Of a stretch of DNA of 64,000 nt, positions 1 to 14,100 are shown in pieces (the stretch's first letter is position 1; each line of letters starts with the position of its first letter). The notes below the pieces were generated by a model. That model ran no database searches. It had not been told where the DNA came from and saw only the letters and a program-made list of their open reading frames with translations. The stretch comes from Mucilaginibacter oryzae (GTDB taxonomy: Bacteria; Bacteroidota; Bacteroidia; Sphingobacteriales; Sphingobacteriaceae). The DNA lies in NCBI RefSeq assembly GCF_003148845.1, contig NZ_QGHA01000005.1, forward strand, positions 180,795 through 244,794. The letters run 5' to 3'. The translations under genes and the position numbers were made by a program.

Positions 1-264
1 GATTATGCTGTTACTGGCCCTGGCCCAAAACGCGACTTAGGCTCTGCCGATTTTACTAACGCTGGTCCAAAAAGAGATTTGGGTTCCGCTGATTTTACCG
101 AAGCTGGTCCGAAACGTGATTTAGGTTCTGCAGATTATGCTGTTACTGGCCCTGGCCCAAAACGCGACTTAGGTTCTGCGGATTTTACTAACGCCGGTCC
201 AAAAAGAGATTTGGGTTCTGCGGATTTTACCGAAGCCGGTCCGAAACGTGATTTAGGTTCTGCG
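1..264 (+). repeat. 132-bp tandem super-repeat (44 residues)
   Basis: The DNA repeats with a period of 132 bp: the stretch starting GATTATGCTGTTACT at base 1 recurs at 133. Each super-repeat holds three sub-units of 16, 14 and 14 codons. Copies differ mainly at third codon positions (ggc/ggt, gct/gcc, gcc/gcg), so the amino-acid repeat is kept while the DNA drifts. The array continues past the left edge. Confidence 0.85.
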
Positions 265-279
265 GACTTCACTGCATAA
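1..279 (+). CDS. Tandem-repeat protein with DLGSAD motifs (5' end outside window)
   Basis: This is the 3' end of an open frame that enters from the left edge; the real start and any signal peptide are not visible. All visible residues are repeats: DLGSADFT(N/E)AGPKR units of 14 residues and one 16-residue variant (DLGSADYAVTGPGPKR), ending in DLGSADFTA and a stop. Each unit ends in a dibasic KR just before the next DLGSAD. I do not recognise a family. The gene 42 bp downstream encodes a short exported protein ending in the same DLGSAD motif, so the two are probably paralogues in one transcript, and this protein is probably exported too (inference). An internal TTG at 79 is not a credible start because the frame is open to base 1. 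Confidence 0.75.
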   Translation, partial: DYAVTGPGPKRDLGSADFTNAGPKRDLGSADFTEAGPKRDLGSADYAVTGPGPKRDLGSADFTNAGPKRDLGSADFTEAGPKRDLGSADFTA

Positions 280-320
280 TAGTCTACGGGTTAGGTCAGC
301 AAACTTCAAAATAAAACATC

Positions 321-485
321 ATGAAAAAAATCCTGATTATAGCGGTAGCCCTGGTAGCAACCGGGCTCACAGCGGTTTCTTTAACCCATAAAGAATCTAA
401 AACCGAAGCTAAAGTTCAGATAATAAAAGCAGATTTTGTTAGAAGCCCAAATGCGCCAAAATCAGATTTGGGTTCGGCGGATTAA
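321..485 (+). CDS. Small exported protein with C-terminal DLGSAD motif
   Basis: A 54-residue protein. The N-terminus MKKILIIAVALVATGLTAVS is a typical signal peptide. The mature part is short and ends PNAPKSDLGSAD, matching the repeat unit of the gene just upstream (AGPKRDLGSADFT) and stopping right after the motif. The start is ATG with little else possible. It looks like a single-copy version of the repeat protein: signal peptide, spacer, one motif. No known family is recognised. It could be a precursor of a secreted peptide or a small surface protein; the sequence does not decide. Confidence 0.7.
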   Translation: MKKILIIAVALVATGLTAVSLTHKESKTEAKVQIIKADFVRSPNAPKSDLGSAD

Positions 486-590: not shown

Positions 591-1958
591 ATGCAGCACA
601 TAAAGCAATATGTTGAGCAAAACAAACAGCGTTTATTAGACGAATTATTCGATCTGTTACGTTTAGCATCGGTTAGTGCCGATCCACAATACAAACCTGA
701 AGTACTAAAAACTGCCGATTATGTAGCCACAAAGCTCCGCGAGGCCGGGGCTGAAAATGTTGAAATTTGCCAAACCGCAGGGTACCCTATTGTATACGGG
801 GAAAAGATCATCGACCCGTCAAAACCTACCGTGTTGGTTTATGGCCATTATGATGTTCAACCGCCCGATCCACTGGAACTTTGGCATACCCCGCCGTTCG
901 AGCCTACTGTACGCGACGGAAAAATTTATGCCCGCGGCGCCTGCGATGATAAAGGCCAGTTTTATATGCATGTAAAAGCTTTTGAGCTGATGATGCAAAC
1001 CGGCACATTGCCCTGCAATATTAAATTTATGATTGAGGGCGAGGAAGAAGTAGGCTCTTCCAACCTGGGCATTTTTGTTAAAGCAAACAAAGAGAAACTG
1101 AAAGCCGATGTGGTGCTCATCTCCGATACATCGATGATCAGTATGGAGCACCCCTCGCTCGAAACCGGCCTGCGCGGCCTTTCCTACCTTGAGGTTGAAG
1201 TAACCGGCCCTAACCGCGATCTGCATTCGGGCGTTTACGGCGGCGCTGTTGCCAATCCAATTACTATCCTGGCTCAAATGATTGCCAGCCTTCATGACGA
1301 AGACAACCATATCACCATTCCCGGATTTTATAACGACGTAGTTCCGTTAACTCAAGATGAGCGTAATGCCCTGAACAGCGCACCTTACAACGAAGCCGAG
1401 TATAAAAAAGACCTGGACATTGCCGAACTATGGGGAGAAAAAGGATATAGCACATTCGAGCGTACCGGCACCCGCCCTACCCTCGAGGTAAACGGTATAT
1501 GGGGTGGTTATACCGGCGAAGGCGCTAAAACTGTGCTGCCATCAAAAGCTCATGCAAAAATTTCTATGCGCCTGGTTCCTAACCAAACTTCGGAGGCTAT
1601 TACCAAACTGTTTACTGATCATTTTTTAAGCATAGCCCCACCCTCTGTAAAAGTAAAAGTTACCCCGCACCACGGCGGCGAACCGGCAGTTACACCAACA
1701 GATAGCATAGCTTACAAAGCTGCACAAAAAGCCATAGCCGAATCATTTGGGAAAGAGCCCATTCCAACACGCGGTGGCGGCAGCATCCCTATTGTGGCGC
1801 TGTTTGAAGCCGAACTTGGTTTAAAAACCGTGCTTATGGGTTTTGGCCTGGATAGCGATGCATTGCATTCGCCAAATGAGAAATACGATATATACAATTA
1901 TTATAAGGGTATCGAAACAATCCCGCTATTTCACAAATATTTCGCCGAATTATCATAA
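591..1958 (+). CDS. M20 family dipeptidase / peptidase
   Basis: A 455-residue M20 zinc peptidase, expected to cleave dipeptides or acyl-amino acids in the cytoplasm (no signal peptide). The metal site is complete: GHYDVQ with H86 and D88, GACDDKGQ around D119, and EGEEEVGS around E151-E153 supplying the catalytic and bridging glutamates. The dimerisation (lid) domain lies around residues 190-330, and a late histidine (ALHSPNE) gives the last ligand. The longer frame from TTG 570 adds only seven residues and begins inside the promoter element, so ATG 591 is preferred. The subfamily resembles cytosolic non-specific dipeptidases. Exact substrate unknown. Confidence 0.9.
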   Translation: MQHIKQYVEQNKQRLLDELFDLLRLASVSADPQYKPEVLKTADYVATKLREAGAENVEICQTAGYPIVYGEKIIDPSKPTVLVYGHYDVQPPDPLELWHTPPFEPTVRDGKIYARGACDDKGQFYMHVKAFELMMQTGTLPCNIKFMIEGEEEVGSSNLGIFVKANKEKLKADVVLISDTSMISMEHPSLETGLRGLSYLEVEVTGPNRDLHSGVYGGAVANPITILAQMIASLHDEDNHITIPGFYNDVVPLTQDERNALNSAPYNEAEYKKDLDIAELWGEKGYSTFERTGTRPTLEVNGIWGGYTGEGAKTVLPSKAHAKISMRLVPNQTSEAITKLFTDHFLSIAPPSVKVKVTPHHGGEPAVTPTDSIAYKAAQKAIAESFGKEPIPTRGGGSIPIVALFEAELGLKTVLMGFGLDSDALHSPNEKYDIYNYYKGIETIPLFHKYFAELS

Positions 1959-4079: not shown

Positions 4080-4826
4080 ATGGCATTAGATAAAGCGCCT
4101 GCAAATTTTGATTATAATTCAACCAGGAATAAACTGATCCTGTCTGAATATGGCCGCAACGTACAAAATATGGTTAAATACATTGTTGCGCTCCCAACCA
4201 AAGAAGAACGTAACCGCTACGCACAGGTAGTGATTGACCTGATGGGCTTTTTAAACCCGCACCTGCGTGATGTGGCCGACTTTAAACACAAACTGTGGGA
4301 CCACCTGCACATCATTTCTGATTACCAGATTGATGTAGATTCGCCCTACCCAAAACCATCGCCAGAGGCTGTGCATATTAAACCGGCGCCCTTAAATTAT
4401 CCGCATCAGCGTATTAAATATAAACACTATGGCAAAACCATCGAGCTGATGATCGAGAAAGCCAAGGCAATTGAAGAACCGGAGCGTAAACGCCACATGG
4501 TACAGGCCATTGCCAATTTCATGAAAATGGCTTATGTACAATGGAACAAGGATTCGGTAAGCGATGAAAGCATCCTTTCGGATCTTTACGCCTTATCCGG
4601 CGGTACATTAAAACTGGAAGAAAACATCAACCTTAACCGTGTTGATTTTCGCCCTAATAACTTCCAGCAAAATGCGGGCAGTAACAACAACCGCGGCCGC
4701 AACAATAACCAAAACAATCAAAACCGCGGCGGTGGTAACGGCGGCAGGCAAAACAACAACCAAAACAACCGCAACAACAATCAAAACAACCGCAATCGTA
4801 ATAACAGCGGCGCTAAAAAATATTAA
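4080..4826 (+). CDS. DUF4290 domain protein with Asn-rich tail
   Basis: A 248-residue protein. Residues 1-180 match what I know of DUF4290, a conserved Bacteroidota family of unknown function (FDYNSTRNKLILSEYGRNVQ near the start). From about residue 195 the protein becomes a low-complexity tail of Asn, Gly, Arg and Gln (GRNNNQNNQNRGGG), resembling RGG/N-rich disordered tails of RNA-binding proteins; RNA binding is only an inference. No signal peptide. It has its own promoter and terminator, so it is monocistronic. Confidence 0.85.
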   Translation: MALDKAPANFDYNSTRNKLILSEYGRNVQNMVKYIVALPTKEERNRYAQVVIDLMGFLNPHLRDVADFKHKLWDHLHIISDYQIDVDSPYPKPSPEAVHIKPAPLNYPHQRIKYKHYGKTIELMIEKAKAIEEPERKRHMVQAIANFMKMAYVQWNKDSVSDESILSDLYALSGGTLKLEENINLNRVDFRPNNFQQNAGSNNNRGRNNNQNNQNRGGGNGGRQNNNQNNRNNNQNNRNRNNSGAKKY

Positions 4827-14050: not shown

Positions 14051-14100
14051 TGTAATTAATTAGTGAATTATTGAATTAGTGATTTAATGAATTAAATCGG
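14051..14100. repeat. Left arm of inverted degenerate repeat flanking the four-helix gene
   Basis: Short units of the type GAATTAGTGATTTAAT repeated imperfectly. The stretch at 14520-14567 on the far side of the four-helix-bundle gene is its imperfect reverse complement (both contain AATTAATTAG.GAATTA and GATTTAATGA). Confidence 0.6.

Follow-up and report, generated by a model that had tools for sequence, protein, structure and literature searches.

From Firmicutes, peptide pheromones encoded beside their receptors are well known, and in the Gram-positive ComD/ComC and AgrC/AgrD pairs a peptide-sensing histidine kinase is linked to a species-variable peptide. Multi-copy peptide pheromone precursors are known from the fungal alpha-factor type, and HOP is a carboxylate-clamp TPR protein which binds the EEVD tails of Hsp70 and Hsp90. 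The RRNPP systems (Rap-Phr, NprR-NprX, PlcR-PapR, AimR-AimP) are recognized by five computational criteria, among them a propeptide of 10-100 aa (PMC10075063). A search of the open-access literature retrieved no report of a receptor-adjacent peptide pheromone in Bacteroidota; the word DLGSAD appeared in none of the papers covered, and the system presented here was not described in them.

We analyzed a locus of Mucilaginibacter oryzae in which four small exported genes, all of them containing DLGSAD, are clustered. The window, that is, the whole stretch of 64,000 nucleotides under analysis (positions 180,795-244,794 of contig NZ_QGHA01000005.1), begins inside this cluster, and features upstream of it are given in the coordinates of locus L003 (L003 position = window position + 6795). 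What makes sense of the locus is the divergent TPR-HisKA sensor gene: on sequence comparison, we read the cluster as coding for the precursors of a peptide signal which is specific to the species, and the divergent TPR-TM-HisKA protein as its putative receptor, with a probability of roughly two in three. The features are as follows.

L003 3633-5072 (outside the window), minus strand: sensor gene P0001, divergent from the precursor cluster.
L003 5610-5771 (outside the window), plus strand: 53-aa precursor ending in KRDLGSAD.
L003 5832-5975 (outside the window), plus strand: 47-aa precursor ending in KRDLGSAD.
Window 1-279, plus strand: 3' end of a multi-unit exported peptide precursor, (DLGSAD..GPKR)n, from ORF reading and TRF.
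Window 321-485, plus strand: exported precursor of 54 aa with one core, at its end, in the form KSDLGSAD, and with a signal-peptide-like start, after a 41-bp gap from the array.
Window 591-1958, plus strand: M20 dipeptidase (NCBIfam PRK08201 equivalog), a neighbour which served as phylogenetic control.

The window is open from its first base to position 279 and reads DYAVTGPGPKR-DLGSADFTNAGPKR-DLGSADFTEAGPKR-..., with units of 14 and 16 residues which all close in KR; TRF gave a period of 42/132. The array gene begins with a signal peptide (MKNLTLIATVLLSTVLSASTLANA) at L003 6195, which is 5' of the window. A scaffold gap of 365 N lies inside the gene, immediately before window position 1, so that the number of units cannot be read from this assembly. 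The complete genome of Mucilaginibacter sp. SMC90 carries the array as a single unbroken ORF of 458 aa with 28 units, which shows that it is not an assembly artefact. The codon pattern of DLGSAD occurred 12 times in the whole genome, always on one strand and at this locus, and the reversed control pattern gave 0/1. Comparison of four arrays (5, 25, 28, and 26 units) showed that the amino acids of the core are constant, with zero variant core words, and that codon changes, all of them synonymous, affect at most nine of its sites, almost exclusively third positions. Since the single-base neighbours of the core comprise 14 synonymous vs. 58 non-synonymous changes, this synonymous-only variation indicates that the peptide is under selection.

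An earlier note on this DNA had described tandem DLGSAD units ending in KR, exported precursors, and selection on the peptide; the reading of the array, the signal peptides, which the array gene shares with all its paralogues, and the codon pattern bear out these three statements, and copy number, whose variation the note had proposed to check, does differ between arrays. It had also pointed to one exported single-core paralogue, the 54-aa protein ending in KSDLGSAD, which proved to be correct as to the protein and incorrect as to the count, there being three such paralogues. The divergent sensor gene and the variation of the motif from species to species, both beyond the window, are not part of the note. 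Orthologues of the 54-aa precursor are found at the same place in other Mucilaginibacter (56, 55, and 54 aa, with the tails KKDLGSAD, KHDLGSAD, and KSDLGSAD, respectively).

The precursor genes lie about 55 bp apart, a spacing which suggests that they are co-transcribed. Because of this short spacing, the words enriched upstream of the precursors are mostly the coding end of the preceding gene (...GCCGACTAA). A shared -7 promoter element, TAnnTTTG, was rejected, as its 11 matches against 13.8 in shuffled sequences showed no enrichment, and an RNA element was likewise rejected, the Rfam search having given no match. The M20 dipeptidase is probably a neighbour and not a part of the system; as a partner it was ruled out, because the sensor-peptide pair is retained in 19 of 19 loci without a dipeptidase within reach. 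On the other side of the sensor gene, all loci in which this side could be seen carry an XRE-family HTH gene (L003 2735-3103, plus strand) and an orphan ORF of about 100 aa (MSNYLISISKN...; L003 3306-3608, plus strand), the latter without a Pfam or NCBIfam match, placed between a UvrD helicase gene and the sensor gene. Within the window, positions 4080-4826 encode a protein of 248 aa whose low-complexity tail is rich in Asn, Arg, and Gly (NNNQNNRNRNN) and which is conserved in synteny near the locus, and a short AT-rich tandem repeat with a period of 8 (TAATGAAT) and about five copies is present at positions 14053-14095.

We compared 108 loci of the sensor and its surroundings within Mucilaginibacter. 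An automatic filter detected exported precursors on the divergent side of the sensor in 105 of them; in two of the others (L153 and L154) precursors are visible by eye, and L140 is interrupted by the contig end. The number of precursors per species ranges from 1 to 12, with a median of 5, and the median number of core copies is 15. The precursors carry Sec or lipoprotein signal peptides, which were called by hydropathy and charge instead of by SignalP. Nearly all core copies of a species have one and the same octapeptide, K-x-x-h-G-x-(A/G)-D, of which 54 versions were found in 97 species, with a mean identity of 0.94 within and 0.585 between species. The words include KRDLGSAD, KRDLGNAD, KKDLGQAD, KKDIGTAD, KKDVGTAD, KKDVSSAD, and KKNTGSAD, and further KHNTGSSD, KRTVGTGD, KNNLATAD, KNDVGNGD, KQDIGQAD, and KGTLSQAD. 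Positions 1 (K/R), 5 (G/A/S), 7 (A/G), and 8 (D, invariant partly by construction of the search expression) are conserved, and positions 2, 3, 4, and 6 are variable. In single-core precursors the octapeptide stands at the very C-terminus, and Asp is the last residue in 251 of 280, a value somewhat inflated because candidates lacking a core were retained only if they ended in Asp; among control ORFs on the opposite strand, the count was 7 of 954.

The first Lys of the core is nearly invariant (49 K and 5 R among the 54 octapeptides), and the second position may be K, N, R, T, G, Q, S, or H. Dibasic KR or KK is found in M. oryzae (G000) and its relatives, and KN, KQ, KH, KG, KT, or KS elsewhere. 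As the second basic residue is not conserved, a dibasic cutter cannot be general, and the KR processing suggested in the earlier note does not hold as a general rule. Its statement that it knew no such family was upheld: searches of Pfam, NCBIfam, and PHROGs gave no credible match for any precursor. The array gene turned out to be neither cytoplasmic nor a member of a known repeat family, outcomes which the note had named as refuting its reading. Matches to the collagen-like adhesin Lcl, PhrK, and DUF6520 were below the cut-off and were discarded as compositional or signal-peptide matches.

The sensor P0001 (479 aa) consists of a hydrophobic N-terminus, a TPR domain (residues 24-335; TPR_12, E = 1.2e-22), a TM segment at about residues 344-365, and a HisKA domain which scored 25.6 bits, just under the cut-off of 26.9. 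The gene is present in 117 of 118 good Mucilaginibacter genomes. All 108 orthologues have an N-terminal hydrophobic segment and one TM segment before HisKA, with positive-inside charge in 103, and the TPR domain is thus predicted to be on the periplasmic side. The phospho-accepting His in SHQIRGP is near-invariant among the orthologues, and HATPase_c is absent from P0001 by profile and from the orthologues by length. A HisKA domain with its phospho-accepting His and without the ATPase must cooperate with another kinase or a phosphorelay. The share of the modal residue over the 108 orthologues was 0.54-0.69 in most of the TPR part vs. 0.91-0.95 at residues 381-440, around the His of HisKA, and mean pairwise distances were 0.497 for TPR, 0.155 for HisKA, and 0.122 for M20.

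AlphaFold2 models of seven orthologues had pLDDT values near or above 90 for the greater part of the TPR domain. Among solved structures, the closest are the TPR domains of LGN/Pins and kinesin light chain (KLC), several of them peptide-bound, and the sequence profile of this part also matches HOP TPR2A as well as NprR and the Rap phosphatases, which rank behind LGN. These models and matches suggest a TPR domain of the peptide-binding kind; descent from RRNPP does not follow. Asn residues at positions 120 and 159, directly before the conserved Gly of the repeat, are near-invariant and resemble the Asn ladder of LGN-type TPRs.

Distances between peptides were correlated with those between TPR domains when M20 distance was controlled for (partial Mantel, r = 0.48, p = 5e-4) and also when the HisKA part of the same protein was used as the control (r = 0.52); the corresponding value for peptide and HisKA given TPR was 0.016. 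In bins of equal M20 distance the peptide-TPR correlation was 0.93, 0.75, 0.67, and 0.59 up to a distance of 0.12, beyond which it fades (0.15) because both peptide and TPR distances saturate. With a stricter rank-based test and quadratic controls, r was 0.13 (p = 0.028); we regard the covariation as real, but weaker than the first test implies. The canonical groove positions 2, 5, 9, 12, and 13 of the TPRs, as taken from other TPR proteins, showed an excess of association with peptide residues (p = 2.5e-4), in a test whose columns are not independent and in which TPR1 allows two repeat registers, with p < 0.001 for either. Groove residues of the sensor are located near positions 85-89, 126-128, 155, 166, and 231-235. 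A helices were more strongly associated with the peptide than B helices (p = 0.0026), a contrast which was matched in 0 of 100 shuffles within clades of 60% identity.

Orthologues of the sensor were found in 11 of 22 genera sampled within Sphingobacteriaceae. In the other genera of the family the layout is the same, the cluster consists mostly of lipoproteins of 44-70 aa (MKK...SCKKE..P...), and the shared tails are different: EKKDMSGWD (three copies), NKKDTTQWD (seven), DQKDNGNWD, GIGDKTYGWD (eight), DKGNLGTWD (six), and GDKKDMGGWD (five). K, G, and the final D persist in many of them. Full-length TPR-kinase paralogues in other Sphingobacteriaceae had no adjoining peptide ORFs. Some additional copies and homologues of the sensor were also seen in the sampled genomes. 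Two tandem extra copies (482 and 492 aa) without adjoining peptides are located at L209 110-3212 (G003), in a genome which has a third copy at a contig end. At L210 6485-9208 (G010) a second copy is truncated (379 aa, HisKA part missing) and lies beside transposase-like genes, without peptide ORFs. An exception to the linkage is the homologue at L219 5636-8193 (G124), whose divergent side encodes an exported protein of 321 aa and no peptide ORF.

Cytophagales MAGs and related genomes encode a full-length TPR kinase that includes HATPase_c, and divergent from it stand genes for one to three lipoproteins and one non-lipidated gene, whose tails are similar within a genome (three copies of TSDKGF with SEGSF; GFERI with GLERI; SERV with SERI). 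In the Cytophagales loci L183, L184, and L228-L231, the full-length TPR histidine kinase is upstream of a methionyl-tRNA-synthetase-like gene, with the small lipoproteins divergent. These kinase-lipoprotein pairs seem to be the same system, but with the kinase intact; the ATPase domain may thus have been lost from the sensor of Sphingobacteriaceae.

Compared with the RRNPP systems, the Mucilaginibacter locus likewise combines a small Sec-exported propeptide, whose active word is C-terminal and of variable specificity, with an adjacent TPR receptor gene of 250-500 aa, here the divergent neighbour of 479 aa. All five computational criteria apply to it; precursor length has a median of 57 aa (n = 483), and the long arrays lie above the 10-100 aa range. 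It differs in that the receptor has a signal peptide and a TM segment, and its TPR domain is predicted to be periplasmic, not cytoplasmic, so that import of the peptide would not be needed; in its HisKA output and Gram-negative Bacteroidota host; in its many precursors per locus, including lipoproteins and arrays; and in a sensor that matches Pfam RNPP_C only below the cut-off (16.1 vs. 26.5 bits). With ComD and AgrC the system shares a membrane sensor whose extracytoplasmic part evolves fast and whose cytoplasmic part is conserved, together with a linked species-variable peptide, whereas its sensor domain is a soluble TPR instead of a polytopic membrane domain and HATPase_c is missing; unlike in Agr, neither an Agr-type maturation gene nor a dedicated peptide exporter was seen at the locus. 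By analogy, the pair would work like RRNPP or ComC/ComD, and we assign it to neither. The array resembles the alpha-factor type as an exported polyprotein of identical units, each preceded by a basic residue and variable in copy number, but it is bacterial, its second basic residue is not conserved, and it is flanked by single-copy lipoprotein paralogues and a cognate sensor. The carboxylate-clamp proteins offer a parallel in the TPR groove, in a ligand with a conserved C-terminal Asp, and in the sequence match to HOP TPR2A; in the present case, however, the TPR is extracytoplasmic, the ligand is species-variable, and the clamp residues are putative.

In the mechanism that we propose, the precursors would be exported, some of them as lipoproteins, after which envelope or extracellular proteases would cut them down to a short peptide whose last residue is Asp. 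Repeats and paralogues would raise the yield of peptide per transcript. The peptide would sit in the concave TPR groove, anchored by its Asp carboxylate, and its binding would switch the HisKA domain, which may signal through a partner kinase or a phosphorelay. The signal would most likely pass between cells of the same species; this intercellular use is the least certain step, because many precursors are lipoproteins that could be read by the same cell. Several points count against our reading: the peptide-TPR covariation is small in the rank-based test, some lipoprotein precursors may stay on the producing cell, the HisKA domain lacks an ATPase, the sensor homologue of G124 and the extra copies in G003 and G010 have no adjoining peptides, and in the arrays a free C-terminal Asp would require cleavage after Asp, for which we know of no enzyme here.

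In a different interpretation, the small lipoproteins and the exported repeat protein would be internal reporters, whose C-terminal tails make contact with the periplasmic TPR domain of their own cell and report for instance on lipoprotein trafficking or proteolysis, with no diffusible signal, and ligand and receptor would drift together. A quarter of the Mucilaginibacter precursors (121 of 483, by lipobox expression) and most of those in other genera are lipoprotein-like, and the sensor domain is predicted in the same compartment, which favours it. Nevertheless, up to 34 core copies per locus and non-lipidated arrays better fit a released product, and the fast divergence of close species (KKDLGQAD vs. 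KRDLGSAD at 2.6% M20 distance) is typical of pherotypes, so that we regard such sensing within one cell as unlikely. Much less probable is a bacteriocin or other antagonistic peptide for which the TPR protein would serve as self-sensor or regulator of immunity: an arms race would also be consistent with hypervariable, multi-copy precursors, but the locus has no conserved gene for a modification enzyme, a dedicated transporter, or immunity, the core word is short and soluble with an acidic end, and near-universal occurrence in the genus is unusual for bacteriocins. That the arrays form a structural or adhesive surface protein beside an unrelated sensor gene is very improbable, since, although repetitive low-complexity exported arrays are often surface or matrix proteins, many species have no array and only single-copy precursors of 45-70 aa that share the tail, the TPR gene stays linked in different genera and in a second order, even where other synteny has gone, and the covariation is specific to the groove.

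The interpretation of the cluster and its divergent sensor as a peptide signal with its receptor, which is in line with the "perhaps signals" of the earlier note, can be extended to a pherotype-diverse peptide communication system in Gram-negative Bacteroidota, with exported multi-copy or lipoprotein precursors, a species-specific peptide, and an extracytoplasmic TPR-histidine-kinase receptor, which would be universal in Mucilaginibacter and widespread among Sphingobacteriaceae and would extend to Cytophagales; for this broader proposal we consider the odds to be even. The presumed loss of the ATPase in one lineage vs. the full kinase in another raises the question of relay partners. If the proposal is true, a periplasmic TPR sensor would have its specificity encoded in a readable groove, ligand-receptor specificity could be tested using short synthetic peptides without modifications, and a major lineage of soil and plants would have a language of at least 54 natural variants.
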